From positions 1 through 14,678 of the forward strand of contig JACPHL010000104.1 of assembly GCA_016188625.1 (NCBI GenBank): a stretch of DNA of 14,678 nt. Reading direction: 5' to 3'. Below are positions 1 through 14,678 of this stretch, one piece after another. Made by a program: the position numbers and the translations under genes. The notes below the pieces were generated by a model, which saw only the letters and a list, made by a program, of their open reading frames with translations, did no database searches and was not told the origin of the DNA. Source of the stretch: Candidatus Rokuibacteriota bacterium. GTDB lineage: Bacteria; Methylomirabilota; Methylomirabilia; Rokubacteriales; JACPHL01. Position 1 is the stretch's first letter; every line of letters begins with the position of its first letter.

Positions 1-1259
1 GGGATCGTGGTCTCGACCCCTTCGACCCGGAACATCCCGAGGGCACGCCGCGCCAGCCCGATCGCCGCGGCCCGATCGACAGCGTGCACGATCAGCTTGG
101 CCAGGAGGGAGTCGTAGAAGGGGGGCACGGTCGCCCCGGGGACGATGTGGGTGTCCACGCGAATCCCTTCCCCCGCGGGTGCGGCCCACTCCCGGACCAC
201 GCCGGGGGACGGCCGGAACCCTTCGTCAGGCGCCTCGGCGTTGATCCGGCACTCGAGCGCGTGGCCGCGAAGGCGGATCTCGGTCTGCGAGAGGCCGAGG
301 GGTTCCCCGGCGGCGATACGGAGCTGCGCCGCGACGAGGTCTACCCCGGTCAGCATCTCGGTCACCGGGTGCTCCACCTGGATCCGGGTGTTCATCTCGA
401 TGAAGTAGAAGCGCCCGGTCTCGGGCTCGAGGACGAACTCGATGGTCCCGGCGCTCTCGTAGCCGATCTCCCGGGTCAGGGCGAGCGCGGTCTCTCCCAT
501 CTGCGTGCGGAGGGTCGGGGTCACCGCCGGCGACGGGGCCTCCTCCAGCACCTTCTGGTGGCGCCGCTGCGCGGAGCAGTCGCGCTCGCCCAGGTGCACG
601 CAGTCCCCCGCATGGTCCGCGAGGATCTGGACCTCCACGTGACGCACCCCCTCCAGAAAGCGCTCGGCGTAGAGGGTGGCGTCGCCGAACGCGGCCTGCG
701 CCTCGGCCGACGCGGCCAGGAACCCCTCGGCCAGCTGGGAGCGCGACCGGATCAGGCGCATGCCCCGGCCGCCCCCGCCCGCGGCGGCTTTGAGGAGGAG
801 GGGGTAGCCGATCCGGGCTGCCACGCGCTCCACCTGGGCTGGCGAGGCCAGGGGGCCGTCGGAGCCCGGAACGACCAGCACCCCGACCTTCGCCGCGATC
901 TCCCGGGCTCGGAGCTTGTCCCCCATCAGGCGGATGGCGTGAGCCGGGGGGCCCACGAACCGAAGGCCGTGCTCCGCGCAGGCCTCAGCGAAGGCCGGAT
1001 TCTCCGCGAGGAAACCGTAGCCGGGATGCACGGCATCGCAGCCGGTGCCGAGGGCCGCGGTGAGGATGGCCGGGATGTTCAGGTAGCTCTCGGCGGCCCG
1101 CGCCGGCCCGATGCAGACGGCGCGATCGGCGAGCTCGGTGTGCAGCGCCCCCCGGTCGGGCTCCGAGTACACGGCGACGCTCTCCAGTCCGAGGGCCCGG
1201 CACGCCCGGATCACCCGAACGGCGATCTCGCCCCGGTTGGCGACGAGTACGCGTTTCAC
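1..1259 (-). CDS. accC: Biotin carboxylase, acetyl-CoA carboxylase type (3' end cut by window edge)
   Basis: This enzyme carboxylates the biotin of its carrier protein with ATP and bicarbonate in the cytoplasm. I translated the minus strand: it opens with MKRVLVANRGEIA, the usual biotin carboxylase N-terminus. It has the glycine-rich ATP loop KAAAGGGGRGM (about 157-167), the RDCSAQRRHQKVLEEAP motif (K236 equals E. coli K238), and E288, N290, R292 in EMNTRIQVEHP, at the E. coli numbering. About 419 residues are in the window; the family is near 450, so roughly 30 C-terminal residues are missing beyond base 1. The start is a GTG at 1259-1257 that overlaps the accB stop by four bases (GTGA), so the pair is probably translationally coupled. 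No accA or accD is in view, so its carboxyltransferase partner is unknown; a role with 5-oxoprolinase or another acyl-CoA carboxylase is possible. Confidence 0.95.
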   Translation of the reverse strand, partial: MKRVLVANRGEIAVRVIRACRALGLESVAVYSEPDRGALHTELADRAVCIGPARAAESYLNIPAILTAALGTGCDAVHPGYGFLAENPAFAEACAEHGLRFVGPPAHAIRLMGDKLRAREIAAKVGVLVVPGSDGPLASPAQVERVAARIGYPLLLKAAAGGGGRGMRLIRSRSQLAEGFLAASAEAQAAFGDATLYAERFLEGVRHVEVQILADHAGDCVHLGERDCSAQRRHQKVLEEAPSPAVTPTLRTQMGETALALTREIGYESAGTIEFVLEPETGRFYFIEMNTRIQVEHPVTEMLTGVDLVAAQLRIAAGEPLGLSQTEIRLRGHALECRINAEAPDEGFRPSPGVVREWAAPAGEGIRVDTHIVPGATVPPFYDSLLAKLIVHAVDRAAAIGLARRALGMFRVEGVETTI

Positions 1260-1795
1260 GGGAGCGGCTCGATCACCATCAGGCTCTGGCCGAACTCGAC
1301 CAGCGCCCCGTTCTCGGCGCAGATCTCGGCGACCCGGCCGCGGCACCCCGCCTTGATCGAGTGCATGAGCTTCATGACCTCGATGATGCAGACCGTGTCG
1401 TCCTCGCCGACCGAACTCCCCACCTCCACGAAGGGGGGTGCCCCGGGCGCGGAGGCCCGGTAGAACGTGCCGACCATGGGCGCCTTCACCTCGTGACCGC
1501 GCTGCCGGAGAGGCCTGGCCGCCGCCGACGCGGGGACCGCCGGCTCCTTCGCGGCCTGGACCACCACGGGCTCCGGCCCGCCCTCGGGCCAGACCGAGAC
1601 CTCCGTCCCGCTCACCTCCACCTCCGGGGGCGCGGCGCGTCGCGCCTCGGGGGCGGGGCTGGCCGCCGAGGAGGCGCCCGCGCCCTTTCTCCGCACGGTG
1701 AGCCTGAACTCGCCGATCTCCAGATGCAGCTCCTCGAGCGAGGAGCCGTCGATGATCCTCAGGATCTCCCGAACGTCCTCGTAGCTGAAGTCCAT
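1256..1795 (-). CDS. accB: Biotin carboxyl carrier protein of acetyl-CoA carboxylase (BCCP)
   Basis: This 179-residue protein carries the biotin that biotin carboxylase charges with CO2. Residues 1-37 resemble the N-terminal BCCP region (MDFSYEDVREILRIIDGSSLEELHLE). Residues 38-100 are a typical Ala/Pro-rich linker. Residues 101-179 form a biotinyl domain with the attachment motif EVMKLM and the biotinylated lysine at K142; V and L replace the A and M of the commonest form EAMKM, a variation often seen in carriers. It starts 13 bases after the TRAP permease stop, with a weak AAGGG ribosome site, and its TGA overlaps the accC GTG. Sitting behind a TRAP transporter and away from accA/accD suggests a pathway-specific rather than a housekeeping carboxylase, which is inference. 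Confidence 0.95.
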   Translation of the reverse strand: MDFSYEDVREILRIIDGSSLEELHLEIGEFRLTVRRKGAGASSAASPAPEARRAAPPEVEVSGTEVSVWPEGGPEPVVVQAAKEPAVPASAAARPLRQRGHEVKAPMVGTFYRASAPGAPPFVEVGSSVGEDDTVCIIEVMKLMHSIKAGCRGRVAEICAENGALVEFGQSLMVIEPLP

Positions 1796-1808
1796 AACCC
1801 TTGCCGGA

Positions 1809-3773
1809 TCACCCCCGGGTTTTCTCGGGCGCCCCGAGCGCCGCCTCCGCTCGCCGGCGCGCCCTGAGCCACTGCCCGAGCACCGCCAGGCCCCCGAGCG
1901 CCACGCCGGCCCCCATCAGCTCGCCCCGGTTCACCGCGGCCCACGCCAGGAAGCAGAGCCCGCCGAACGCCACGAGGCTGCGTTCAGGCCGCCGGAGCGG
2001 GCCTCCCAGCCATCCCCACCAGGCGGCCGAGAGGCCCACCAGACCCACCACGGTCGAGCCGAACGCCATCAGGAGCGGCAGGGAGACCGTCGGGAACTCC
2101 AGGAGAACAGGGTTGAAGATGAAGACAAAGGGGACGAAGAGCCCCACGAAGGCCAGCTTCAACGCCCTTCGGGCCGTTTCCATGAAGGAGGCGCCGGCCA
2201 GCTGGGCGGCCGTCATAGCGGTGATGGCGACGGGCGGAACGATGGTGGCGAAGACCGCATAGTAGAAGACGAACATGTGCGCCGCCAGACGGGAGAACCC
2301 CACCTCCTCGAGGAACGGCGCGAGCGCCAGCGCCATGATCACGTAGGTGGCCGCCTCGGGTATGGCAGCTCCCGTCACGAGCGTGGCCAGCATGACCAGC
2401 GGCAGCGCCAGCGCCGGCATGGCGCCGAACGGGCTCAGGATGAGGGCGTTCGCAAAGCTCGTCCCGAGCCCCGTCGTGATGACGGCCTGGGCCACCGGGC
2501 CGATCAGCGCCAGCAGGAGACCGAGCTTGGCGGCTGTCTTGGCCCCATCCAGCACACCGTCGAGGACGGCCCGGAACCGGGGCCGGTATGGTCCCTGAAC
2601 GATGAAGGGCACCACGGCCGCCGTGAGGAGCGCCCAGAACCCCGCCAGCTTCGGCGTGTACATGGAGAGGAGCAGGAAGGTCAGGACCCCCAGGCTGATG
2701 ACGAAGGTCGGAAGGACCCTGAGGACCAACCCCCAGTCGATCGGGGCGACAAGGCGCTCGGCCCCCGTCGCCCGCGCATGAAAATACACCCCCAGCCCGA
2801 CCCCGGCGTAGTAGAGGAGGGCAGGGATCGTGGCCGCGAACGCGACCGTGATATACGGGACGTTCAGGTAGAAGGCCATCACGAACGCGCCCAGCCCCAT
2901 CACGGGCGGCATGATGAGGCTCCCGGCCGAGGCGGACGTCTCGACCGCCGCGGCCATCTCCGGTTCGAAGCCCTGACGCTTCATCTGCGGGATCGTGATC
3001 CGCCCGGTGATCACGACGTTGGCCACCGCCTGGCCCACCATGGTGCCGACCAGGGCGCTCCCCACGACGGCCGGGTAGGCGGCGCCACCGCTGACCCGCC
3101 GCCCCACGGCCTTCCCGAGCTCCAGGAGCGCTCCGATGGTGCCGGTCTGGGCCAGCACGGCACTGAACAGGAGGACGTAGAACACCACGTCGGCCGTCAG
3201 GGGGATGAGCCAGTAGATCCCGTAAACCGGATGGAGCGTCGTGTAGCTCACGACGAAGCCCGTTGCGTAGGGGATATGGCCCAGGAAGCCGGAGACGAGG
3301 TCGCCGAAGAAAAAGTAGAGGAGGCTCGCGCACACGACGGTCGTCAGGACCCATCCCCAGGTGAAGAGGCCGGCCATGATCATGCCCCCCAGGGCCGTGA
3401 GCCCGACCGCGACATCCCATGAGTTCAGGAGCCCTGCCGAGACCTCGAGGCGCTCGATGTTCAGCCAGAGGTAGATGGGCCCGAGCAGGCCGGCCGCCAG
3501 GGAGACGCACAGCATCGCGGTCTTCGCGTGGTAGAGGCCGACGGATCGCGATGGGCCCTGGGTGAGCCACTCCTCCAAGGCCATGAGGAGCGCGATGGAG
3601 AAGACGGCCCCGAAGAAGAGCGAGTAGTGCTGCGAGACCCCCTGGAGGGGGTACCAGACGTCGACGAGCTGGTAGAGGACGAGGAGGCCGGCCTCCACCG
3701 CGACGACCCACGAGAGGACACGGGCCACCTTCGCCCGCGTGATCATGATGTGACGGGGCACCTCCTGCCACAT
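1809..3773 (-). CDS. TRAP transporter fused permease (DctQ-DctM fusion, TAXI-associated)
   Basis: This 654-residue inner-membrane protein is the permease of a TAXI-type TRAP transporter, which uses an ion gradient to take up a solute handed over by a periplasmic receptor. The N-terminal about 160 residues hold the small DctQ-like helices. The rest is the large DctM-like domain, with the family-typical stretch around 236-300 (GTMVGQAVANVVITG, then ETSASAGSLIMPPVMG). Hydrophobic segments recur to the C-terminus, which ends in a short basic tail. I chose the ATG at 3773 because AGGAG of a strong GGAGGAG ribosome site lies five U residues upstream; the reading frame stays open to 4085, but that extension is Arg/Gly/Pro-rich antisense-like sequence lying over the receptor gene. 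The gene follows the receptor by 56 bases, and its ribosome site is buried in a hairpin (see 3771-3810). accB starts 13 bases downstream. Confidence 0.93.
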   Translation of the reverse strand: MWQEVPRHIMITRAKVARVLSWVVAVEAGLLVLYQLVDVWYPLQGVSQHYSLFFGAVFSIALLMALEEWLTQGPSRSVGLYHAKTAMLCVSLAAGLLGPIYLWLNIERLEVSAGLLNSWDVAVGLTALGGMIMAGLFTWGWVLTTVVCASLLYFFFGDLVSGFLGHIPYATGFVVSYTTLHPVYGIYWLIPLTADVVFYVLLFSAVLAQTGTIGALLELGKAVGRRVSGGAAYPAVVGSALVGTMVGQAVANVVITGRITIPQMKRQGFEPEMAAAVETSASAGSLIMPPVMGLGAFVMAFYLNVPYITVAFAATIPALLYYAGVGLGVYFHARATGAERLVAPIDWGLVLRVLPTFVISLGVLTFLLLSMYTPKLAGFWALLTAAVVPFIVQGPYRPRFRAVLDGVLDGAKTAAKLGLLLALIGPVAQAVITTGLGTSFANALILSPFGAMPALALPLVMLATLVTGAAIPEAATYVIMALALAPFLEEVGFSRLAAHMFVFYYAVFATIVPPVAITAMTAAQLAGASFMETARRALKLAFVGLFVPFVFIFNPVLLEFPTVSLPLLMAFGSTVVGLVGLSAAWWGWLGGPLRRPERSLVAFGGLCFLAWAAVNRGELMGAGVALGGLAVLGQWLRARRRAEAALGAPEKTRG

Positions 3774-3810
3774 AAAAACTCCTCCGTCCCGCGCCGGAGG
3801 AGTTTCTACG
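3771..3810 (-). promoter_or_regulatory. Hairpin enclosing the ribosome site and start codon of the TRAP permease
   Basis: In the minus-strand transcript, 3810-3795 (CGUAGAAACUCCUCCG) can pair with 3786-3771 (CGGAGGAGUUUUUAUG). That gives 16 consecutive base pairs (14 Watson-Crick and two G-U wobbles, at 3809/3772 and 3806/3775) around an 8-base loop (3794-3787). The 11 loop-proximal pairs are a perfect inverted repeat. The 3' arm contains both the GGAGGAG Shine-Dalgarno and the AUG of the permease. The arm also carries a run of five U, so it has some likeness to an intrinsic terminator or attenuator. Its function as a translational or transcriptional control element is inferred from the geometry alone. 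Confidence 0.6.
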
Positions 3811-3829
3811 CGACGCCGGTCCCGCGCGG

Positions 3830-4921
3830 CTACTTCTTGGCCCCCGAGAGCACCTTCTCCGGCGGCCAGAGACCCGCCTCCTGGAACGCCCGCAGCGCGC
3901 CCGGATGGATCTTGTTCGGAAGCTCCAGGAAGGGTCGCACCATGGTCTCTTTGTTCCAGGTCTTGCCGATCGCGACGAACTGACCGGCCTTGGGCCCGAC
4001 CTGGATGAACGCCTTGGTGACCTCGTACGCCAGGTCCTCCGGAAAATCGGGGTGCACGGCCCGCACGCCGACGTCCGCGAACCACTGAAGCCGCTCCGGC
4101 TGCTTGGGGAAGGTATTGGGCGAGAACTCCAGCGGGATGAAGGGCGATCCCGTCTCCCGGTTCACCCTTTCCGCGGTTTCACGCGGGAGATCCAGGTAGC
4201 GGAACGCCCTGCCGGAGGCGGCCAGCCGCGTCAGCACCGCGCCGGGCACGACCTCCCGCATGAGCGCGTCCACGTTCATCTGCACCAGCGCCGCCACGAC
4301 CCGCCCGTCCAGCAGCGCGTCCATCCCCTTCACCGGGCCGAGGAACTGGATCGGCGTGTTCTCCTCAGTGATCCCGTAGCCGTGCTTCAGGAGCGTGTAG
4401 ACGAAGCCGCCCCAGTGGGTCTGCGTCTTGAGCCCGATGGCGATGGGCTTGCCCTTGAGGTCGGCCACGCTCTTGATGTTCGGATCGGTCGTCGCGAACC
4501 ACGAGTTCGCGTGCAGGGTCTCTCCGTAGAGCCACTTCCAATCGACGGTGATCGGCTCCTCGAAGAACGGCTTCGTCCCCTTCGCCGCGAGCCACTCGGC
4601 CCCGGTGCTGCTACCGAACGTGGCGGTCTTCTGAAGCGTGCGGTCCTTGGCCATGACCTTGAGGTTGTACACGTAGCCGGGGGTCTCCTGCTGGAAGGGA
4701 CGGAGCCAGGGATGCTGGTCAGCGACGAGCCGGTCAAAGATGAAGTATCCCTCCCAGCCCCCGCCCAGGGGGTACTGGAGGAAGGGAACCCTCACCTCCT
4801 TCTGGGGCTGAGCGGAGGGGGTCGGCGCCTGGGCCGCTGCTCGGGGGCCCAATGTCACCCCGAGCAGGACGGCGAGGGCCAACGCGGCACAGAGCCAGTA
4901 GGGTCGCACTCTCGTCCGCAT
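3830..4921 (-). CDS. TAXI-family TRAP transporter solute-binding receptor
   Basis: This 363-residue exported protein should bind the solute in the periplasm and deliver it to the fused permease encoded next. It has a signal peptide (MRTRVRPYWLCAALALAVLL, then an AAA-QA cleavage site near residue 30). TAXI-family marks include the SVADLKGKPIAIG segment mid-protein and the C-terminal IHPGALRAFQEAGLW. The N-terminal binding loop reads YPLGGGWEGYFIFDRLV instead of the usual GGSTGGTYY-like loop, so it is a divergent member and the ligand cannot be predicted; known TAXI ligands are mostly organic acids and amino acids such as glutamate. The ATG at 4921 has AAGGAGGA six bases upstream. The open frame extends to 5380 only as a shadow of the IclR gene. 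It lies 44 bases after the IclR stop, so it is probably co-transcribed with it. Confidence 0.92.
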   Translation of the reverse strand: MRTRVRPYWLCAALALAVLLGVTLGPRAAAQAPTPSAQPQKEVRVPFLQYPLGGGWEGYFIFDRLVADQHPWLRPFQQETPGYVYNLKVMAKDRTLQKTATFGSSTGAEWLAAKGTKPFFEEPITVDWKWLYGETLHANSWFATTDPNIKSVADLKGKPIAIGLKTQTHWGGFVYTLLKHGYGITEENTPIQFLGPVKGMDALLDGRVVAALVQMNVDALMREVVPGAVLTRLAASGRAFRYLDLPRETAERVNRETGSPFIPLEFSPNTFPKQPERLQWFADVGVRAVHPDFPEDLAYEVTKAFIQVGPKAGQFVAIGKTWNKETMVRPFLELPNKIHPGALRAFQEAGLWPPEKVLSGAKK

Positions 4922-4965
4922 GACGTTCCTCCTTCGGTTGAGGTTGCCCAGGACCGATGACGCCT

Positions 4966-5769
4966 TCAAGGCCCGAGCCCGCCCCGGTCCGCCAGGTGGG
5001 CGCTGAGCTCGGCGGTGCAGGCCCGGAGGTCCGGGAGATAGCTCCGGGCTTTCTCCAATGAAAAACGGGCAGAAGGTGCCGAGACCGCGAGCCCGGCCAC
5101 GACCTTGCCGTGGCGGTCCTTCACGGGAACGGCGAGACAGCAGACCCCCGCGAGAAATTCCTCGTTGTCCTCCGAGTAGCCCCGCCGGCGGATCTCCTGG
5201 AGCCTCTGGACGAGACGCGCGCGATCGACGATGGTGTTGGGCGTGTAGGGCTTGAGCTGGATGGACTTCAGGAACCGCTCGCGGTGGCGGCGCGGCGCAA
5301 AGGCCAGCAGGAGCTTGCCGTTGGCCGTACAGTGGACCGGCACCCGGCTTCCGGGCTCGAAGTTGATGCTGAGCGGCCACGCGGCCTCGACCCGCTCGAT
5401 GTACGTGACCTCCCGGCCCACAAGCACCGCGAGGTTGATCGTCTCCCCGAGCTTTTCAGAAAGCCTCTGGAGGATGAAGTGCCGCTCACGATGGACCGGG
5501 CCATTCCGGATGGCCTGGAAGCAAAGATCGTGAAACGCCTTCCCCATGCTGTAGCGCCGCGTGAGCGGATCCTTGTAGACAACGCCCTCCTGCTCCAGGA
5601 GGGCCGCGATCCGGTACACGGTGGGCTTGGGGAGCCGGACCGCGGCGCTCAGCTCGGCGAGGGAGAGCGGGGCCTCCTCCCGAGCGACGCGGGCGAGGAC
5701 CTTCAGGGCCCTGGTGATCGGCGAGGTTCCGAGCGCCATTCCGTTCAATGGAACGAACCGTTCTGCCAT
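4966..5769 (-). CDS. IclR-family transcriptional regulator
   Basis: This is a DNA-binding regulator that probably controls the downstream TRAP and accBC genes. In the 267-residue version, the winged helix-turn-helix spans about 15-77 (SPITRALKVLARVA, then SLAELSAAVRLPKPTVYRIAALLEQEG). The IclR effector domain follows, with FEPGSRVPVHCTANGKLLLAFAP (about 137-159) and VCCLAVPVKDRHGKVVAGLAVS near the C-terminus. The start is uncertain. ATG 5769 gives 267 residues; ATG 5739 gives 257 and begins MALGTSPITR, closer to family N-termini. Neither has a clear Shine-Dalgarno site. The promoter read at 5770-5798 would start transcription near 5763, which favours 5739. The gene is in the same direction as its neighbours, 44 bases ahead of the receptor gene. 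The effector is unknown. Confidence 0.93.
   Translation of the reverse strand: MAERFVPLNGMALGTSPITRALKVLARVAREEAPLSLAELSAAVRLPKPTVYRIAALLEQEGVVYKDPLTRRYSMGKAFHDLCFQAIRNGPVHRERHFILQRLSEKLGETINLAVLVGREVTYIERVEAAWPLSINFEPGSRVPVHCTANGKLLLAFAPRRHRERFLKSIQLKPYTPNTIVDRARLVQRLQEIRRRGYSEDNEEFLAGVCCLAVPVKDRHGKVVAGLAVSAPSARFSLEKARSYLPDLRACTAELSAHLADRGGLGP
5742..5763. promoter_or_regulatory. Overlapping palindromes, candidate IclR autoregulatory operator
   Basis: The + strand reads CGTTC-AATG-GAACG-AAC-CGTTC, so the GAACG in the middle forms one palindrome with the CGTTC on its left and another with the CGTTC on its right. It sits at or just after the expected transcription start of the IclR gene, where a repressor would block initiation. 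IclR-family proteins are known to bind short palindromes or repeated half sites at their own promoters; the assignment here is inference. If the regulator starts at 5769, the site would be inside its coding sequence. Confidence 0.4.
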
Positions 5770-5798
5770 ATGATCGAATAGCCCGACGGGATTGTCAA
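5770..5798 (-). promoter_or_regulatory. Candidate sigma-70-type promoter of the IclR/TRAP/accBC unit
   Basis: On the minus strand a perfect -35 hexamer TTGACA (5798-5793) is followed after 17 bases by GATCAT (5775-5770), a 4/6 match to the -10 consensus. The spacer contains the small palindrome CCCGTCGGG (5790-5782). The predicted start point is near 5763. This is the only stretch of this quality in the 95-base gap after the upstream SDR gene, and it would let the second unit be expressed on its own. Confidence 0.45.
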
Positions 5799-5864
5799 GC
5801 CCGGTGCCGCCCCATCCGCACAGCCTGCGGGCCGAGGTCTCCCCTCCGACCTTCGCCGGCCGTC

Positions 5865-6677
5865 TCAGCCCGTTGCGGCCACCGCCGCCTTCCCCTTGCG
5901 CACCGCCTCGTACGCCTCGAGCTCCATCCAGCCCAGGAGGATCCCGCCGTCCACGTCGAGCGCGACTCCGGTGATGTAGCCCGCCCGCTCCGAGAGGAGG
6001 AGCAGCACCGCGTTCGCCTGGTCCTCCGGGGTCGCCAGCCGGCCGAGCGGCGTCCGCCGCCGGCTCTGCTCCAGGGGCGCGGGATCCCCGATCCGTTCCA
6101 TCAGCGCCGTCAGCGTCTCCCCGGGGCAGATCGCATTGACCCGGATGCCGTAGGGGCCCAGCTCGTAAGCGAGATGGCGGGTCAGGCCGATGATCCCCGC
6201 CTTCGCCGCCGTGTAGTGGGCGCCGCCGTTGATGCTGATCCGTTTCCCGGCGATCGAGGCCACGTTCACGATATGCCCGGTCCGCCGGGGTTTCATGATC
6301 CGGATGGCGGCCCGGGCACAGAGAAACGCCCCCGTCAGGTTCACGTCGATGACACGGCGCCAATCCGCTTCCGTGATGTCCTCGGCGAGGAGACGCTGGC
6401 CGATCCCGGCGTTGTTGACGAGTATGTCAAGCCGACCGAACGCCGCCATGGCCCGTTCGAACATCGAGTCCACGGCCGCTCCCTGCGCGACGTCGGCCGC
6501 GATGGGCAGCGCCCGGCGTCCGAGCGCCGCGATCTCCCCGCCCACACCCTCGGCCCGGTCGAGGACGAGATCGTTGACCACCACGTCGGCCCCCTCCCGC
6601 GCGAGCGCGAGGGCGATCGCGCGGCCGATCCCGTCGCCGGCTCCGGTCACGAGTGCCACCTTCCCTGTGTGTTCCAC
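5865..6677 (-). CDS. Short-chain dehydrogenase/reductase (classical SDR)
   Basis: This 270-residue cytoplasmic oxidoreductase should interconvert an alcohol and a ketone, or reduce a related carbonyl, with a nicotinamide cofactor. All classical SDR marks are present: cofactor loop TGAGDGIG (11-18), NNAG (88-91), active-site N113 in DVNLTG, S141, and Y155-x-x-x-K159 in YTAAK, then the PG motif of ICPGE. An aspartate at the end of the second strand (D36 in VVVNDLVLD) favours NAD over NADP. The start is a GTG at 6677 with AAAGGAGG about eight bases upstream. It is 87 bases after the amidohydrolase stop, a looser junction than those further upstream, but in the same direction. The substrate is not recognisable; an acyl-CoA or hydroxyacid intermediate of the upstream pathway is one possibility. 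Confidence 0.93.
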   Translation of the reverse strand: MEHTGKVALVTGAGDGIGRAIALALAREGADVVVNDLVLDRAEGVGGEIAALGRRALPIAADVAQGAAVDSMFERAMAAFGRLDILVNNAGIGQRLLAEDITEADWRRVIDVNLTGAFLCARAAIRIMKPRRTGHIVNVASIAGKRISINGGAHYTAAKAGIIGLTRHLAYELGPYGIRVNAICPGETLTALMERIGDPAPLEQSRRRTPLGRLATPEDQANAVLLLLSERAGYITGVALDVDGGILLGWMELEAYEAVRKGKAAVAATG

Positions 6678-6693
6678 GCCCTGTCCCTCCTTT

Positions 6694-6706
6694 CCGGAGT
6701 CTCCGG
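6694..6706. repeat. Perfect 13-base palindrome ahead of the SDR gene
   Basis: The sequence CCGGAGTCTCCGG is a perfect inverted repeat of six-base arms around one base, lying just upstream of the ribosome site of the SDR gene at 6677. It could be a small protein-binding site or chance in GC-rich DNA; it lacks a U-tract and the loop is too tight for a terminator. Nothing else I can support lies in the 6678-6764 gap. Confidence 0.25.
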
Positions 6707-6764
6707 CCCCGCCAAGCCTGACCTCCTGCTGCCTGTCAAAGGCCGATCCCGCGGTCCGGGGCGG

Positions 6765-7880
6765 TCAGGGGAGGCGGAAGACCCGGGCGGCGTGCTCACC
6801 GAGAACCTTGCGCTTCTGGTCCTCGCTGAGATCGGTCCGGCTCGCCAGGATCTTGACGGTGTCCGGCGTCTTGGCGTCCCAGTGGGGGTAGTCCGAGGCG
6901 TACATCACCCGCTCGTCCCCCAGCCAGCCGAGGACCATCGCGAGGGTCTCCTCGTCGGGATCGCAGGAGAAGACGAGGTTCGGCGACCTCGCCCAGTCGC
7001 TCGGCGCCCGCTTGAGGTTCGGGACCAGCCCGGAGAGCCTCTCGTAGTGCTCGTCCATCCGCTCGAACCAGTAGGGCACCCACCCCACGCCGGACTCCAG
7101 CGCCCCGATGGTGAGCCGCGGAAAGCGCTCCAGCACCCCCTCGGTGACCACGCTCATGACCGCGACCATCGCCTCGAAGGGGAAGGCGACCATGTGGCCG
7201 TGGAAGAAGTTGTCGAACCGCTCGCGCCCGACGTAGTCCACCTGGCCTCCGGCGTGGGGGTGGATGAAGATGGGGACGCCCAGGCGCTGGGCCTCCTCGT
7301 AGATCGGGTGGAAGTGCGGGTCGCCCGGGTAGCGCCGGCCCTCGGAGTTGGTGGGGATCTCCGCCCCCACGAACCCCAGCCCCTCCACGCAGCGTGCCAG
7401 TTCCTTCACCGCCTCGGGGATATTCCTCGTGGGAAGCACGGCCACCGCCTTGAGCCGCTGCGGGTCCGCCCGCGTGTACTCGGCCACCCAGCTGTTGTAC
7501 GCCCGGCAGAGGGCGGCCTCGAAGCCCGGGTCGCGCGAGGGCAGCACGCCGGCCGCCGGCCCCATCGTGACCGTGGCGAACAGGACGGCGATGTCGATCC
7601 CCTCGAGATCCATGTCGGCGAGCCGCGCGGCGGGATCGCTCCCCCCCGTGTACGTCTGGGTCCTCGCGCCCCCCTCGGTGCCTCCGGGGTGACCCACCCC
7701 GGGACCGGCCGGGGTCGTCCAGAACCAGCCGTCGATCAGGTAGCGGGGCACACCCCGGTTGTCCGCCACGAGCCGGGGTCGCCAGTCGCGGTACGGCGGC
7801 TCGAGGAAGCGCTCCCACAGCTCCGGCGGCTCGACCACGTGGCCGTCGGCGTCCACCACCCGGTACCCGTAGCGTCCCAT
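6765..7880 (-). CDS. Amidohydrolase-2 family metal-dependent hydrolase or decarboxylase
   Basis: This 371-residue protein belongs to the amidohydrolase-2 (ACMSD-like) TIM-barrel group, whose members decarboxylate or hydrolyse aromatic and carboxylate intermediates using one metal ion. The N-terminal metal motif reads VVDADGHVVEP (8-18): the H-x-H of ACMSD is D12-x-H14, as in a large uncharacterised clade I know with this DADGH form. Further ligands are H207/H209 in IFIHPHAGG and D330 in YASDYPHWD. The start ATG at 7880 has a purine-rich GGGGGGAACG just upstream and lies 14 bases after the previous stop; the frame stays open to 8495 but that part is a shadow of the SDR gene. It is probably in the operon with the amidase and enolase-like genes. 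Decarboxylation versus hydrolysis cannot be decided from the sequence. Confidence 0.92.
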   Translation of the reverse strand: MGRYGYRVVDADGHVVEPPELWERFLEPPYRDWRPRLVADNRGVPRYLIDGWFWTTPAGPGVGHPGGTEGGARTQTYTGGSDPAARLADMDLEGIDIAVLFATVTMGPAAGVLPSRDPGFEAALCRAYNSWVAEYTRADPQRLKAVAVLPTRNIPEAVKELARCVEGLGFVGAEIPTNSEGRRYPGDPHFHPIYEEAQRLGVPIFIHPHAGGQVDYVGRERFDNFFHGHMVAFPFEAMVAVMSVVTEGVLERFPRLTIGALESGVGWVPYWFERMDEHYERLSGLVPNLKRAPSDWARSPNLVFSCDPDEETLAMVLGWLGDERVMYASDYPHWDAKTPDTVKILASRTDLSEDQKRKVLGEHAARVFRLP

Positions 7881-7894
7881 CGTTCCCCCCGAGC

Positions 7895-8683
7895 CTACAG
7901 GCAGCGCGTCGCGCCGCCGTCGGCGTGGACGACCGTGCCCGTGACGAAGCTGGCGCGCTCCGAGGCGAGAAAGACGATGACGTCGGCGATCTCCTCCGGC
8001 CGTGCGGCTCGCCCGAGGGGAACCTGCGACAGCCAGCGGCGGCCCGCCTCCTCGACGGAGATGCCGAGAACGCGCGCCTCGGTCTCGAAGACATCGCGGA
8101 GGCGCCGCGTCTCGACGGGCGCGGGGTTCACCCCCACCACGCGGATCCCGTGGCGGGCCTCCTCCTGGGCGAGTCCCATGGTGAAATTGATCAGGCCGGC
8201 GTTGGCGACCCCCGCGGGCAACGCCCGTCCGTCCGGCTGCTTGCCGCGATGCCCGATCACGTTGACGATCACGCCGCCGCCCCGCGCGCGCATGGCCGGC
8301 AGGACCTCGCGGCAGCAGCGGATCTGGCCCAGCAGCTTCAACGCCAGGCTCTCGTCCCAGTCGCGCTCGGTCAGCTCGAGGAAGTCGCCGCCCCTCGCCG
8401 CCCCGATGGAATTGACCAGGATGTCGATCCCCCCCAGGCGCTCGACCACCGCGCGCACCATCGCCGTCACCTCGTCGGGGCGGGTGCAGTCGCACACGCA
8501 GGCCAGGGGACGGCGGCGGGTGCTCGCCTCGATCGCGGCGGCCGCTTCGTCCAGCGCGGCCCGCTCGCGAGCTGCGATCGCGACACGGGCGCCTTCTGCG
8601 GCGAAGGCCAGCGCCGTGGCGCGCCCGATGCCGCGGCTCCCTCCCGTGATCAACGCCACCTTGCCCTCGAGCCCGAGATTCAT
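7895..8683 (-). CDS. Atypical SDR-fold protein lacking the Ser-Tyr-Lys catalytic residues
   Basis: The 262-residue protein has a normal Rossmann start (TGGSRGIG, 13-20; NADP-type AARER after the second strand), the NPAPV equivalent of the PG motif and the DGG end. The active site is altered. NNAG is NSIG (91-94); the helix-4 Asn is K116 (LKLLG); the catalytic Ser position is G144 (VNVIGHRGK); and the YxxxK motif reads AGVANAGL, placing A157 for Tyr and N161 for Lys. I checked this region base by base, and the frame is intact. From memory, a widespread proteobacterial SDR clade has the same LKL..G and NAxL pattern, so this looks like a conserved divergent group rather than decay. It may use another mechanism or bind a ligand without redox. 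The ATG overlaps the enolase-like stop by four bases (ATGA). Confidence 0.88.
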   Translation of the reverse strand: MNLGLEGKVALITGGSRGIGRATALAFAAEGARVAIAARERAALDEAAAAIEASTRRRPLACVCDCTRPDEVTAMVRAVVERLGGIDILVNSIGAARGGDFLELTERDWDESLALKLLGQIRCCREVLPAMRARGGGVIVNVIGHRGKQPDGRALPAGVANAGLINFTMGLAQEEARHGIRVVGVNPAPVETRRLRDVFETEARVLGISVEEAGRRWLSQVPLGRAARPEEIADVIVFLASERASFVTGTVVHADGGATRCL

Positions 8684-9783
8684 CCGAAGCGCTCCCGCGC
8701 CCGCGACGCCAGGGTGACGCCGAGTCCCGGCCCCTCCGGCGGCGCCGCGGTCCCGCCTTGGACCGCCACGGACGGCTCGATCAGGTCCTCGACCAGGCGG
8801 AGGTGGCCGACCATCTCGCCCGCGTAGGGGATCGCCCGGAGCGCCGCCGCGAGGTGGAGCTCCGCGGCCACCCCGATCCCCGACTCGTGGCCGCTCCCGA
8901 CGATCACGGGGAGCCCGGCCGCCTCGGCCACCGCGCAGACCTTTCGGGCGCGGAGGAGCCCGCCGGAGCGCATGACCTTGATCTTCACGAGGTCAGCGGC
9001 CCGCCGCTCCACGATCCTGAGCACGTCCGTGGGCGTGGACACCGGCTCGTCGGCCATCACGGGCACATCCAGCGCGGCCGCGACCCTGGCGAGGCCATCC
9101 AGATCCCATGCGGCCACGGGCTGCTCGATCAACGCCGGCTCGTAGCGCTCCAGCCGGCGGAGCAGCGGGACGGCCCGGTCGGCGGTGAAGGCCTGGTTGG
9201 CGTCCAGGCGCAGCTCGACGGCCGGCCCGATCGCCTCCCTCACCGCCCGGACGGTCTCCTCGTCACGCCCATCCGGGTCACCGATCTTGAGCTTCACGGT
9301 CCGGAACCCCTGGGCCACCAACCGGGCGGCGCGCTCGGCAGCGGCCTCGGGGCTCCCCAGGAGCCCGATGGGCCCGCCGGCGAGCGGCACGCGCTCCCGG
9401 AACCGCCCCCCGAGCAGACGGTACACCGGCACCCCCAGGAGCGCGCCGATCAGATCGTGGAGGGCCAGGTCGATCCCGGCCTTGGCGAAGAGGTGGCCCG
9501 GCAGCACCGTGTCCAGGCGGTCGTGGATGGCCTCGAGGTCGAACACCTCCATCCCGAGGATCGCGGGGGCCAGGTGCTGGCGGGCCGTGGCGACGATGTC
9601 CGCCTGGGTCTCCTCGCTCTCCCCCTGGAAGGGCGCGGCCTCACCGATCCCCGCCAGCCCCTCATCCGTCTCGACCCTGACGAGGACGTACTCGGCGCGC
9701 TCCTGGACCGCGCGGGCGATCCGGTAGGGCTCCCGGAGCGGCAGGCTCACGGGGACCACCTCCACGGCCTTGATGGCGGCCAT
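8680..9783 (-). CDS. Enolase-superfamily enzyme, muconate-lactonizing (MLE) subgroup
   Basis: Members of this family abstract a proton next to a carboxylate and stabilise the enediolate on a magnesium ion; MLE-subgroup reactions include cycloisomerisation, epimerisation and o-succinylbenzoate synthesis. In this 367-residue protein the catalytic K164-L-K166 lies in TVKLKIG. The metal ligands are D194 (LRLDANQAF), E220 (LIEQPV) and D245 (ADEP), and the second lysine is K269 (VKIKV); these spacings equal those of Pseudomonas MLE. The C-terminal stretch AGEMVGHLRLVEDLI matches the subgroup. The dipeptide-epimerase DxD motif is not evident, so I do not assign that role. It starts three bases after the amidase stop and overlaps the next gene by four bases, so all three are probably coupled. 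The substrate is probably a carboxylate generated in this pathway. Confidence 0.93.
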   Translation of the reverse strand: MAAIKAVEVVPVSLPLREPYRIARAVQERAEYVLVRVETDEGLAGIGEAAPFQGESEETQADIVATARQHLAPAILGMEVFDLEAIHDRLDTVLPGHLFAKAGIDLALHDLIGALLGVPVYRLLGGRFRERVPLAGGPIGLLGSPEAAAERAARLVAQGFRTVKLKIGDPDGRDEETVRAVREAIGPAVELRLDANQAFTADRAVPLLRRLERYEPALIEQPVAAWDLDGLARVAAALDVPVMADEPVSTPTDVLRIVERRAADLVKIKVMRSGGLLRARKVCAVAEAAGLPVIVGSGHESGIGVAAELHLAAALRAIPYAGEMVGHLRLVEDLIEPSVAVQGGTAAPPEGPGLGVTLASRARERFG

Positions 9784-9786
9784 GGC

Positions 9787-11181
9787 CTACCGCGACCCCT
9801 CTCGGCCACCACCCTGGGTGACGAGCGACTCGGACGGCATGCCGGAGAAACCGAGCACCGCCTCGCACCACCGCGCCGCGGCCAGGAGCCGCGCCTCGTC
9901 AAAGATCCCTGACACCAGCTGAACGGCCAGGGGCAGCCCATCCCGCGTCAACCCGGACGGCAGGGAGATGGCCGGCACACCCGCGAAGGTCCACGGGGCG
10001 CAGAACACCGGGTCACCGGTGGAGCTGAACCCCCTGGGGGCGGCGGTCTCCGTCACCGGCATCAGGAGCGCGTCGAACCGGGCCAGCAGGGGCGCCGTCT
10101 CCGCCCGGAACTGCCCACGGCCGCGCTGGGCGGCGACGTAGTCCACGCCCCTCACCTCGAGCCCGTCTTCGATGGCGCCCCGGATCTGCGGCGGGTAGCG
10201 CACGGCGTGGGCGGCGAACCGGACCGCGTGGAAGGCAGCCGCCTCGACCTGCATCACCCGCATCCCGGCCTCGTGGACTCCCGCGAAGCTGGGGGGGAGC
10301 TTCACCTCTTCCAGGCCGGCCCCTGCCCGGGCCAGGCGCTGCGCCACCGCTTCCACGTGGGCGCCGACCTCCGGGCCGGCCCGTTCCAGGAAGAACTGGC
10401 GGACGAGCCCGAAGCGGGGCGGTCGCTCCGCGCGCGAGACGGCCTCGAGGTAGTCGGCCACGGGCTCTTGAGCCGAGTGCGGGTCGGCCGGATCATGGCC
10501 GGCGAGGACCTGGAGGGCGAGGGCCGCGTCGGCCACGCTCCGGCAGAAGATGCCGGCGTGATCGAGGCTCCACGCCAGGGGCACCACTCCCCGCAGGCTG
10601 ATCCGGCCGTAGGTCGGCTTGAGACCCACGACCCCGCAATACGCCGCCGGCCGAAGGGTCGATCCGAGGGTCTGGGACCCGAGGGCCAGGGGCACCATGC
10701 GGGCGGCGACCGCCGCGGCAGAGCCGCTGGAGGAGCCGCCGGGCGTGTGCCCGAGGTTCCACGGGTTTCGCGTCTCGCAGGGATCCCGGTAGGCGAACGG
10801 GGTGGTGGTGGTCTTCCCCACGATGACGGCGCCCGCGCGGCGCAGGCGCGCGACGCTCTCGGCGTCCTCCGTGGGCCGCTCGTGGGCGAAGGGGGGAGCG
10901 CCGGCCGTGGTGGTCATCCCGGCCACGTCGTAGAGATCCTTGAGCCCCACCGGCACCCCATGGAGCGGACCCCTGAACCGGCCGGCCTCACTCTCCGTGG
11001 CCAGCCGTCTCGCGGTCTCCAGCGCCCCCTCCCGGTCCACGGTGACCCAGGCGTTCACCCCGGGCTCAAGGGCGTCGATCCGTTGCAGGGACGCGTCCAC
11101 CAGCGAGACGACGGAGATCTGGCGGCCTCGGATCAGGGCCGACGCCTCACTGGCGGTGAGCAGGTGAAGACGGTCCCTCAT
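9787..11181 (-). CDS. Amidase-signature family hydrolase
   Basis: This 464-residue enzyme should hydrolyse a carboxamide to acid plus ammonia or amine through the Lys-cisSer-Ser triad. K81 is in GVPVGLKDLYDV, the cis-serine is in TPGGSSSGSAAA (S150-S152), and the nucleophile S174 is in GSQTLGSTLRPAAYCG. The last motif has Leu where many amidases have Gly (DTGGS), an uncommon but tolerated change. The C-terminal domain follows the family pattern (APWTFAGVPAISLPSGL). The start ATG at 11181 overlaps the tctA stop (ATGA) and has GAGGG close upstream; the frame beyond it to 11487 lies over tctA. GatA is a less likely identity because no gatB/gatC is nearby and the context is catabolic. Coupling to tctA suggests that the transporter feeds it, or takes up its product. 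Confidence 0.94.
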   Translation of the reverse strand: MRDRLHLLTASEASALIRGRQISVVSLVDASLQRIDALEPGVNAWVTVDREGALETARRLATESEAGRFRGPLHGVPVGLKDLYDVAGMTTTAGAPPFAHERPTEDAESVARLRRAGAVIVGKTTTTPFAYRDPCETRNPWNLGHTPGGSSSGSAAAVAARMVPLALGSQTLGSTLRPAAYCGVVGLKPTYGRISLRGVVPLAWSLDHAGIFCRSVADAALALQVLAGHDPADPHSAQEPVADYLEAVSRAERPPRFGLVRQFFLERAGPEVGAHVEAVAQRLARAGAGLEEVKLPPSFAGVHEAGMRVMQVEAAAFHAVRFAAHAVRYPPQIRGAIEDGLEVRGVDYVAAQRGRGQFRAETAPLLARFDALLMPVTETAAPRGFSSTGDPVFCAPWTFAGVPAISLPSGLTRDGLPLAVQLVSGIFDEARLLAAARWCEAVLGFSGMPSESLVTQGGGREGSR

Positions 11182-12810
11182 GGCCCTCGACGGCTTTCGA
11201 CATGGGCGCCCTCCCCTTGAGCGGGGATGGCCGGGGAGGCCGCCTCGGTGGTGAACTTGGGAGGCCGGACGAGGTTGAAGATGATCGTCCCGACGCCGGC
11301 GATCAGGAGCGTTGCCGACACCGGCCTGTAGAAGAAGCCGAAGAGGTCGTAGTGCATGATCTGCATCGACTTCACGAAGGCCGCCTCCCCCAGGTCGCCC
11401 AGGATCACGCCGAGCACGATCCCGGCCACGGAGTAGCCGGTGCGCCGGAGCAGGTAGCCGACGATCCCCGCCACGAACATGACCCAAACGTCCAGGATCA
11501 GGTTCCGCAGCGCATAGGCGCCGATGGTGGCCAGCAGGAGGATGGCCGGGGCGAAGAGCCGGAAGGGGATCCGGAGGAGCTGGACCGTGGTCTTGGTCTC
11601 CAGGTAGCCGAGGAGGAAGATGCAGAGGTTCGCCACGAACATCGCCACAAAGGTCACCCAGACAAGGTCCTTGCTGTTGGCGATGACGAGGGGTCCGGCC
11701 TCCATGCCGTGGATCTGGAAGACGCCCATCATCATGGCCGTCAGCGCCCCGCCGGGCAGGCCCAGCGCGAGCAGGGGGATCATGGCGCCCCCCGTAGCCG
11801 AGTTGTTGGCCGTCTCGGAGGCCACGACGCCCTCGAGCTCACCCTTGCCGAAACGCTCCGGATGCCTGGACCACCGCACGGCCTCGTTGTAGCTCATGAA
11901 GGCGGCCAGCGTCGCCCCGATCCCCGGCAGCACCCCGGCGAAGAACCCCAGCACGAAGGAGCGGAACACGGCGAGCTTCAGGCGCCAGAACTCGAGCAGG
12001 GTCGGGAACTCGAGGCCGATCTTGGGGGGCCGGTAGATCCCGGTGATGATGCGCTCGCCCTGGACGAACACCTCCGCCACGGCAAAGAAACCCAGGATCA
12101 GCGGGATGAAGTTGATCCCTGACGATGCGCTCGCCCTGGACGAACACCTCGGCCACGGCAAAGAAGCCCAGGATCAGCGGGATGAAGCTGATCCCGGCGA
12201 GGAGGTAGTAGCTGCCGAAGGCGAAGCGGTGAAGCCCTCCGGCCGGGTCGGTGCCCACCGTGGCGATCAGCAGCCCCAGCAGGACCGAGAGCCACCCCTT
12301 CCACAGGGTGCTGGCGCCCACGGACGCGGCCACCGAGAGCCCGAAGAAGATCAGGGCGAAGATCTCCTGAGGTCCGAAGGTGTGCACGGCCCAGTCGGCG
12401 ATCGCCGGCGTCGCCACCATCATGACGAGCGCCGAGGCGGCGCCCCCGACCGCGGAGCACGTCACCGCGGCGCCGATGGCCTTCCCCGCCCTCCCCTGCT
12501 GGGTCATCGGGTAGCCGTCGAAGGCCGTCGGGGCGTTCTCGGGTGACCCGGGGATGTTGAAGAGAATCGCCGTCACCGCCCCGCCGTAGACGCCGGAGAC
12601 ATAGATCACCGAGTACAGCATGATGGCGTGGGTGGCGCTCATGTACGCCGTGAACGGCAGGAGCACCGCGCCGAGGGTGAGCATGTTGACCCCTGGAACG
12701 GCGCCGAAGAGCAGCCCGCCCAGGAGCCCCAGGACGAAGTAGACGATCCCCATGGGGTCGCTGAAGAGCTGCACGAGCCCACCGGCGAAGTTGCCGACCA
12801 GGTCCCCCAT
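11178..12810 (-). pseudogene. tctA: TctA large permease of a tripartite tricarboxylate transporter, frame broken by tandem duplication
   Basis: TctA is the multi-helix membrane subunit of an ion-coupled, receptor-dependent carboxylate transporter. The 5' part, from ATG 12810 (GAGGG five bases upstream), encodes the N-terminal TctA half with GAVPGVN and FNIPGSPENAPTAFDGYPM. The 3' part encodes the C-terminal half with VLPGIGATLAAFMSYNE and ALGLPGGALTAMMMG. The halves are in different frames because a 76-base segment is repeated head to tail at 12044-12195. The first frame then runs 93 non-native residues to a stop at 11839. Deleting one copy leaves 1557 bases, a clean 518 codons plus stop, the normal TctA size. 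It follows tctB by nine bases and overlaps the amidase start. Either the gene is inactivated or the duplication is an assembly artefact. Confidence 0.9.
12044..12195. repeat. 76-base head-to-tail tandem duplication inside tctA
   Basis: Copy one is 12044-12119 and copy two 12120-12195; both run from TGA(T/C)GATGCGCTCG to GATGAAG(T/C)TGATCCC with no spacer. They differ at four of 76 positions (12047/12123, 12075/12151, 12090/12166, 12112/12188). Each encodes the same hydrophobic helix, FIPLILGFFAVAEVFVQGER. Because 76 is not a multiple of three, the duplication shifts the tctA frame. Confidence 0.92.
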
Positions 12811-12819
12811 GCCGGCCCT

Positions 12820-13350
12820 CTACTGGATCAGCGACAGGAACCAGTTGCTGAAGTCATAGAACCCCGGCCAGACCCCAGCCGGCAGCGGCACGAAGAAGAG
12901 CTTCGTGAAGGCCAGCAACACCAGCGCGTAGACCAGGAGCACGGTGCCCACCAGGTGGCGGAGCCGGCGTTCGCCCAGGAGCAACATGTAAGCGGCCAGG
13001 AAGAACGGGGTGACCGCGTAGTAGCCCGCCCGGGGGAGCAGAAAGACGTAGAGCACCGGCAGGGCGAAGGTCGCCAGCCGCTTGAGGTGGACCCCGCCAG
13101 CGACGGGCGCGGCGGCCTCCGGCCGGCGAGCGGTGAGGGGTCGTCGAAACCACTCAAGCCTCGAGCCCAGCTGGCAGAGGGCCACGACGACCATGAGGAC
13201 GATCAGCACTCGCGGCCAGCTGGCCGCGCCGAAGCGATAGACGGACAGCGGCTCGTCGAACTGGCGCGTCAACCCGTACGTGATCGCGGCCAGGGCGAGC
13301 CAGACCCCGGCCTCGACCAACGCGGCTCTGACCGCGGGCGAGCCCCTCAT
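12820..13350 (-). CDS. tctB: TctB small permease of a tripartite tricarboxylate transporter
   Basis: This 176-residue inner-membrane protein is the small subunit that pairs with TctA. It has the expected four hydrophobic segments: about 9-25, 44-60, 91-107 with 110-125, and 134-150. The SWPRVLIVLMVVVALCQLG segment and the end LFFVPLPAGVWPGFYDFSNWF are typical of TctB (FVPLPxGxWPG-like ending). The length is usual for the family. The start at 13350 lacks a strong ribosome site; the 13-base gap to the tctC stop suggests translation by re-initiation. The gene order tctC-tctB-tctA is standard. Confidence 0.92.
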   Translation of the reverse strand: MRGSPAVRAALVEAGVWLALAAITYGLTRQFDEPLSVYRFGAASWPRVLIVLMVVVALCQLGSRLEWFRRPLTARRPEAAAPVAGGVHLKRLATFALPVLYVFLLPRAGYYAVTPFFLAAYMLLLGERRLRHLVGTVLLVYALVLLAFTKLFFVPLPAGVWPGFYDFSNWFLSLIQ

Positions 13351-13363
13351 GGCACAGCAGCGG

Positions 13364-14347
13364 CTACTTGATCAGCCCGAGCTCCTTGTAGATTTCCCGA
13401 TAGGTCTTCACGTCGTCGCCGATGAGCTTCCGGGCCCCGGCGGTGTCGCGGTAGCTGTTGATCAGGTGCATGAACTGCTTCTGATTGAACTCCTGAAACT
13501 CCGGGGACCTCCAGGCCTCCGCAAAGGCCTTTTCCAGGACCTTCACGCGGTCCTCCGGGGTGCCCTTCCGGACGAAGAAGCCGCGCCAGCGGAGGAGCGG
13601 CGGGTAATCGAGCCCGAGGTCCTTGAGGGACGGCACGTCGGAGAAGTCCTTGGGCCGCTCGGGCAGGAGGGTCAGGATCGGCTTCATCTTCTTGGCATCC
13701 AGGAACGAGCGGACGTCTCCCGGCTGCTCGAAGAGCACGTCCACGTGCCCGCCGATGAGGGCCCCGTAGCGCTCGGCCGGCTTGTCGAAGCTGACCTGGG
13801 TCGTCTTGAAGCCCAGCGCCTTCTCGATCTGGATCATGGCGACGCGCTCCATGGACCCCACGGCGCCGACGTTGGCCACGGTCACCTTCTCGGGGTTGGC
13901 CTTGGCGTACTTGACGAAGGCGTCCCAGTTCGGGAAGCGGGCGTCGTCCGGGCGCACATAGAGCTGGTTGAACGTGATCTGAGCGATGGCCACCGGAATC
14001 CAGTCCTCCCCGGGGTTCTCCTTGACCTTCCCCGAGGCGTACAGCGTGGCCGAGTCGTCGATGTGCTGGATGACGGTGTAGCCGTCCGCCGGCGCCGTCA
14101 TGAAGTCGGGGATCGCCGCCAGCCCGCCGCCGGGCTTGTTGACCGCCTGGACGGGGACCTTGAGGACCTTCTGCAACGGCTCCTGGATGCCGCGGGTCAG
14201 CTGGTCGGAGCCACCACCCGGGCCATACGGGATGATGATCGTGATCGGCCGGGACGGAAACGTCTCCTGGGCGACAGACGGCAGGACGGAGAGTCCCAGC
14301 AACACCGTGACGACGAGAACAACCGCCACCCCTCTCGAGCCTCTCAT
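13364..14347 (-). CDS. tctC: TctC (Bug-family) periplasmic solute-binding protein of a tripartite tricarboxylate transporter
   Basis: This 327-residue exported receptor binds the carboxylate and hands it to TctAB. It has a signal peptide with a hydrophobic core at 7-22 and a likely cleavage after SVA (residue 26). The Bug-family motif FPSRPITIIIPYGPGGGSD follows at 30-48. Further marks are NKPGGGLAAIPDF, the PADGYTV segment, and a C-terminal domain with GFFVRKGTPEDRVKVLEKAF. The ATG at 14347 has AAGGAGG seven bases upstream. Bug proteins bind a wide range of carboxylates and related molecules; the ligand here is not predictable. It is the first gene of the transporter set. A 20-base inverted repeat (14364-14383) sits directly upstream of its ribosome site. 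Confidence 0.95.
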   Translation of the reverse strand: MRGSRGVAVVLVVTVLLGLSVLPSVAQETFPSRPITIIIPYGPGGGSDQLTRGIQEPLQKVLKVPVQAVNKPGGGLAAIPDFMTAPADGYTVIQHIDDSATLYASGKVKENPGEDWIPVAIAQITFNQLYVRPDDARFPNWDAFVKYAKANPEKVTVANVGAVGSMERVAMIQIEKALGFKTTQVSFDKPAERYGALIGGHVDVLFEQPGDVRSFLDAKKMKPILTLLPERPKDFSDVPSLKDLGLDYPPLLRWRGFFVRKGTPEDRVKVLEKAFAEAWRSPEFQEFNQKQFMHLINSYRDTAGARKLIGDDVKTYREIYKELGLIK

Positions 14348-14550
14348 GGCAATGCCTCCTTCAGCATGTGTGAACGAACATGCCCACCCCGCGCGGCCTC
14401 CACTTGGCCGGCGAGGGCCAGGCTCGCCGTCGCGAACAGCGTGAAGGCGAATCCGGCGAACCCCAGGCTGATGCCCGCGATAACACGGTCTTCCAATGGG
14501 TCAAGAAGACGGCCCGGGGCTGCCGCACCCGAGCACTTCAAGACCGCCAT
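14344..14550 (-). CDS. Possible small membrane protein ahead of tctC (uncertain)
   Basis: An open frame of 68 residues runs from ATG 14550 to a TGA that overlaps the tctC ATG (ATGA). The central part, DRVIAGISLGFAGFAFTLF and on to ASLALAG, is a convincing single hydrophobic helix with GC-rich third codon positions like the neighbours. The first 20 residues look less coding-like, and no clear ribosome site precedes the ATG. I do not recognise a family. It could be a real small transporter-associated protein, a decayed remnant or chance. Confidence 0.28.
   Translation of the reverse strand: MAVLKCSGAAAPGRLLDPLEDRVIAGISLGFAGFAFTLFATASLALAGQVEAARGGHVRSHMLKEALP
14364..14383. promoter_or_regulatory. 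Inverted repeat upstream of the tctC ribosome site, candidate operator
   Basis: GCATGT and ACATGC are six-base perfect arms separated by eight bases (GTGAACGA). The repeat lies two bases before the AAGGAGG site of tctC. Such spacing fits a dimeric regulator, or an RNA stem with an 8-base loop. It contains GAACGAAC (14372-14379), also found in the candidate operator of the IclR gene (5751-5758). Function is inferred. Confidence 0.35.
14477..14504 (-). promoter_or_regulatory. Weak candidate promoter for tctCBA
   Basis: TTGACC (14504-14499) is followed after 16 bases by TATCGC (14482-14477), a 5/6 and a 3/6 match to the sigma-70 hexamers. It would start transcription near 14470 and give tctC a leader of about 120 bases. 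The rest of the 14348-14599 gap holds only the doubtful small frame, the inverted repeat and a poly-C run. Read-through from the upstream TRAP gene is an alternative. Confidence 0.22.
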
Positions 14551-14584
14551 CTACTTCCGCTCCGGAGGACTGGATTCCCATCTT

Positions 14585-14594
14585 CCCCCCCCCC
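14585..14594. repeat. Run of ten C just after the DctM-type stop codon
   Basis: Ten consecutive C (G in the transcript) lie five bases past the stop of the partial permease gene. It is not in a coding region I can support. Such runs are prone to slippage and to sequencing error. Confidence 0.8.
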
Positions 14595-14599
14595 ACCCG

Positions 14600-14678
14600 C
14601 TACCGGAACAACACGCCCGGGAGCCAGAGGGCGATCTGGGGGAAGAGGAGGACCAGGAGGACGCCGACCACCTGGAGA
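14600..14678 (-). CDS. TRAP transporter large permease (DctM type), C-terminal end only
   Basis: The last 25 codons before a TAG at 14602-14600 read LQVVGVLLVLLFPQIALWLP and then GVLFR. This is the usual C-terminus of a DctM large permease (a final hydrophobic helix followed by a FPQ...WLP motif). The rest of the gene lies beyond the right edge. It shows that a second TRAP transporter precedes the TctCBA set in the same direction. The assignment rests on a short stretch, so an unrelated membrane protein cannot be excluded. Confidence 0.65.
   Translation of the reverse strand, partial: LQVVGVLLVLLFPQIALWLPGVLFR

Follow-up and report, generated by a model that had tools for sequence, protein, structure and literature searches.

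In Escherichia coli, differential mRNA decay raises the level of the binding-protein message in the five ABC transporter operons in which it was found, and the stabilized gene is always the binding-protein gene (Dar and Sorek, PMC5927463). At malE, a structure in the 3' intergenic region blocks exonucleases and protects the mRNA (PMC5927463). The stable hairpin in malE-malF is just past the binding-protein gene and before the gene for a membrane subunit, within one operon, and its role there is to provide an excess of binding-protein mRNA (PMC5927463).

Here we describe a hairpin at the corresponding position in a TRAP transporter operon. The window analyzed is 14,678 nucleotides of a Candidatus Rokuibacteriota genome (contig JACPHL010000104.1, positions 1-14,678; assembly GCA_016188625.1), and all of the relevant genes are on its minus strand. 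As in malE-malF, a stable hairpin directly follows the stop codon of the receptor gene and precedes the membrane subunit gene of the same operon. It is conserved in three families of Rokubacteriales. The position, stability and recurrence of the TAXI hairpin match the malE arrangement, and on this basis we propose a boundary-element mechanism. There are also differences. The system in the window is a TRAP (secondary) transporter rather than an ABC transporter. In addition, its stem is single-copy and not a dispersed repeat, and contains a U5 run and an in-frame AUG.

Results

The hairpin separates two genes of the TRAP system. Upstream is the gene for a TAXI-type TRAP solute receptor (3830-4921; Pfam NMT1_3, 1.5e-18; NCBIfam TRAP_TAXI, 9.8e-21, under the curated cut-off), and downstream is a gene for a fused TRAP permease (DctQM; 1809-3746 from its likely start; NCBIfam TRAP_fused, 1.8e-109, over the cut-off; Pfam DctM, 4e-56). 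The gene context includes an IclR-type regulator (about 4966-5796) and a biotin carboxyl carrier protein (BCCP) gene (1256-1795), the latter on the same strand and 13 nt downstream of the TRAP permease gene. Elsewhere in the window, a TctA-like permease gene on the minus strand is broken into two overlapping frames (11178-12161 and 11839-12810). Its 76-bp tandem duplication (12044-12195; two copies, 95% identical) is not a multiple of 3 in length, and could be either a genuine mutation or an artifact of assembly.

On the minus strand, positions 3814-3767 read GUCGCGUAGAAACUCCUCCG-(GCGCGGGA)-CGGAGGAGUUUUUAUGUGGC and form a helix of 20 continuous pairs, 4 of them G·U (arms 3814-3795 and 3786-3767, loop 3794-3787), that begins 15 nt past the receptor stop codon. 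The preliminary description of this DNA had reported 16 continuous pairs with two G·U at 3810-3771. This is exact, and constitutes the inner part of the stem, around the 8-base loop GCGCGGGA; the helix extends four pairs further, to 3814/3767. The hairpin alone has a predicted folding energy of about -33 to -34 kcal/mol. None of 200 dinucleotide shuffles was as stable (z = -6.1). It is the longest uninterrupted stem in the approximately 244 kb of sampled DNA on which all comparisons with the rest of this genome are based; the runner-up has 19 pairs. The plus strand of the same site can form the 11-bp core only, in agreement with the earlier view that the hairpin between the two genes belongs to the mRNA. 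Within the 3' arm, an SD-like site, a U5 run and an in-frame start codon (GGAGGAG-U5-AUG, 3785-3771) are fully paired, with a mean unpaired probability of 0.0 and a calculated opening cost of 21.4 kcal/mol.

No second copy of the 66-nt junction was found in a search of the sampled genome. We rejected a dispersed repeat or REP-like element: CTCCTCC-N-GGAGGAG occurs at 11 sites in this genome, and its reversed control at 25. In Rfam, no match exceeded the gathering score, and a sub-threshold lncRNA match was on the opposite strand only. A covariance model built from three homologous junctions, searched across the order, recovered only those three, opposite-strand echoes and one weak match (E 0.004) in DNA that looks protein-coding. 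In the open-access literature, we found no account of a hairpin between the receptor and permease genes of a TRAP system.

Within the phylum sample, only two further genomes encode a permease closely similar to that of the window (79% identity): G072 and G094, each from a different family of Rokubacteriales. Judging by its identical length and match, the G094 locus is apparently the same contig as L003, the closest named relative, which is a Candidatus Rokuibacteriota MAG. The hairpin is kept between the TAXI receptor and the fused TRAP permease in both, with z near -6. In G072 it is CACGCAAAAGCUCCUCCG-(GCGCAGGA)-CGGAGGAGUUUUUGUGUG, with 18 pairs, and in L003 it is CGCAU[G]AGAACUCCUCCUCC-(GCGCA)-GGGGGAGGAGUUCUAUGUG, with 19 pairs and one bulged G. 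The CUCCUCC/GGAGGAG core is invariant in the window, G072 and L003. Outward from the core, there are two double-sided compensatory changes (A-U to G-C and U-A to C-G) of the kind that the preliminary description proposed looking for at related junctions. Four one-sided changes in the stem also keep the pairing, and one position is lost as the bulged G. The hairpins are 67-79% identical, whereas identity falls to 15-50% in the spacers that flank them and to 45-62% at the third codon positions where the permease gene begins. Retention of the hairpin with compensatory changes between diverged spacers indicates that the structure is under selection, although three sequences are few. The G072 receptor (L088; G072:C159:2380-3379) matches that of the window in two pieces, residues 10-171 and 185-363, in different frames, which suggests a frameshift or an assembly error.

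There are two candidate start codons for the permease. AUG 3773 is within the stem, and a second AUG is 27 nt downstream at 3746, outside it. The latter begins MITRAK (ATG 3746-3744). An AGGAGG (3766-3761), immediately beyond the stem, precedes it by 14 nt, which is a long spacing; opening this start would cost 6.7 kcal/mol. No start position other than this M-I-(T/S)-R is shared by all three genomes. In L003, the hairpin retains GGAGGAG and an AUG, but the reading frame from that AUG reaches UAG after 10 codons, and the first start codon in the permease frame is at 2991 (MISREK), about 100 nt past the stem. G072 has a GUG in the hairpin, in frame and 9 codons ahead of MITR. The nine-residue extension that would result differs between the window (MWQEVPRHI) and G072 (VCEREPCPH), whereas the sequence from MITR onward is conserved. 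Opening the stretch from SD to start within the hairpin would cost 20-22 kcal/mol in all three genomes, as against 7-14 kcal/mol for the region from -20 to +5 around the MITR/MISR start. The simplest reading of these sequences is that the permease starts at 3746.

We also surveyed the 107 nt past the stop codon of TAXI receptor genes, counting a stem as significant if it was in the top 2% of 100 dinucleotide shuffles. Significant hairpins followed 38 of 87 receptors, and about half of the receptors had none. The loci, drawn from relatives across many phyla, lack phylogenetic independence. With genes and starts called by a simple script and the relatedness of loci approximate, hairpins were found at 24 of 48 junctions where the permease comes next, at 9 of 26 where a different gene intervenes, and at 5 of 13 where the permease is elsewhere rather than downstream. 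Among co-directional ends of non-receptor genes in the same loci, 8 of 98 had a significant hairpin (Fisher p 1.9e-8), as did 2 of 45 with a gap of 20-250 nt (Fisher p 4.8e-7). At most of the surveyed junctions, the hairpin ends ahead of the first possible permease start. Hairpins are thus enriched behind TAXI receptors whatever gene follows, and we conclude that the hairpin belongs with the 3' end of the receptor gene. In the sampled part of the window's own genome, 10 of 196 gene ends qualify, that is, the window hairpin and 9 of 195 others.

Several individual loci in the survey deserve mention. One of the nine other qualifying gene ends (L093, contig C309, 5497 onward) is directly behind a second TAXI-like receptor and has an 11-bp G-rich hairpin, with no U-tract, 7 nt past the stop codon. 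Three loci from Deltaproteobacteria/Thermodesulfobacteriota (L005, L012 and L016) have a near-identical hairpin, GGCGGGAATG-loop-CATTCCCGCC, behind their TAXI receptors, which suggests that sequence as well as structure is conserved there. Three clostridial-type MAG loci (L011, L020 and L025), in which another gene precedes the permease, have in common GATGAAGCAT-loop-ATGCTTCATC and a T-rich tail behind the receptor.

Discussion

We think it likely that the hairpin is a 3'-boundary element of the receptor gene in a receptor-permease operon, serving as an exonuclease barrier, a leaky terminator, or both, and giving an excess of receptor. What the sequences show is the hairpin itself, how it is conserved and enriched behind TAXI receptors, and a second start kept among the homologues; processing or termination of transcripts at this point, and an excess of receptor, we infer. 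The hairpin would then lead to a stable and abundant receptor-only message and to less permease message. This could occur by two routes. The permease part of the transcript might be cut, after which 3'-to-5' exonucleases would be blocked at the hairpin. In this lineage, the U5 run might also cause a degree of leaky termination. Translation of the permease would begin at an AUG of its own (3746), just past the stem, and the GGAGGAG and AUG in the 3' arm would be mostly a by-product of the sequence and position of the stem. The suggestion in the preliminary description that the receptor is needed in excess fits this proposal.

Termination might be more than an accessory to this process. In a narrower version that overlaps with the boundary element, the hairpin would be mainly a leaky intrinsic terminator, or attenuator, at which most transcription of the operon ends once the receptor gene has been copied, with exonuclease protection secondary. 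An attenuator acting at the U5 run was also raised in the preliminary description. Like intrinsic terminators and leaky attenuators, the hairpin has a GC-rich 8-bp core and an 8-nt loop (CTCCTCCG / loop / CGGAGGAG, 3802-3774; core -15.0 kcal/mol) followed by U5 (TTTTT, 3778-3774). Terminators are commonly scored by the d'Aubenton-Carafa d formula, with usual thresholds of d > 0 and nT > 2.9, and both the window and G072 have d = 19.3 and nT 4.18. Strong U-tracts are present in several homologues (L060, L068 and L012), and the genome has at least one canonical terminator, with 13 pairs and U7. However, the U5 run in the window is itself paired with the 5' arm, within the longer 18-20 bp stem, and is followed by AUGUG, and a consensus terminator scanner did not list the site. 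The U-tract of L003 is weaker (UUCU, nT 2.62, under the threshold of 2.9), and the receptors of two other Rokubacteriales loci, L091 and L092, are followed by 16-18 bp hairpins that lack a U-tract and have d below zero. In the survey, U-tracts behind receptor hairpins are common but not general: of the 24 significant hairpins with the permease next, only 9 had at least four T in the 8 nt past the last G-C pair, and this criterion overlooks U-runs that are paired, like that of the window. We regard a mainly terminating role as possible but doubtful. That the hairpin is a chance inverted repeat with no function seems highly improbable. Other long stems rich in GC are present in this genome, but shuffle z values of -6 in three families, at the same place and with compensatory changes, and the strong enrichment behind TAXI receptors, argue against chance.

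The preliminary description postulated that the hairpin hides the ribosome binding site and AUG of the permease, so that permease synthesis from AUG 3773 would be low or dependent on a trigger. Like SD-sequestering hairpins (RNA thermometers and riboswitch expression platforms), the stem does bury an SD-like GGAGGAG and an AUG in its 3' arm. This part of the claim holds, as GGAGGAG, U5 and AUG are all in the stem and would take about 21 kcal/mol to open. Further, the spacing of GGAGGAG to AUG is ideal, and both the window (ATG) and G072 (GTG) have an in-frame start after GGAGGAG-U5, 9 codons ahead of the other start. AUG 3773 is nevertheless a poor candidate for the permease start. L003 uses another start, with a dead-end AUG in its hairpin and no start in the permease frame before 2991, and the extension in G072 is not conserved. 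The cost of opening the stem is high, and related hairpins are mostly upstream of all permease starts and are present also where the permease is not next. The dead-end AUG of L003 and the conserved start at 3746, outside the stem, indicate that the hairpin probably does not lock the start of the permease, or does so at best in this lineage, and we consider such a lock rather unlikely. Sensing of a ligand through the loop, also suggested, found no support: neither a ligand domain nor an Rfam family could be matched, and L003 has a different loop. It is conceivable, though quite unlikely, that a single stem, in the lineages to which the window and G072 belong, both ends the receptor message and, through the in-frame start at its base, lowers translation of the permease unless opened by RNA processing, a helicase or a bound factor. 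If so, the ratio of the two subunits would be set at the levels of both RNA and translation. It is most likely, however, that the hairpin marks the end of an abundant receptor message rather than locking the permease start.

Translation need not begin at the start codon and Shine-Dalgarno sequence that a stem happens to contain, and we suggest caution in reading such sites. With the proposed receptor-boundary role, the TAXI-TRAP family would join the operons that probably set an excess of binding protein by means of a hairpin after the receptor gene. This would apply to an uncultured phylum and, judging by the survey, to many others.
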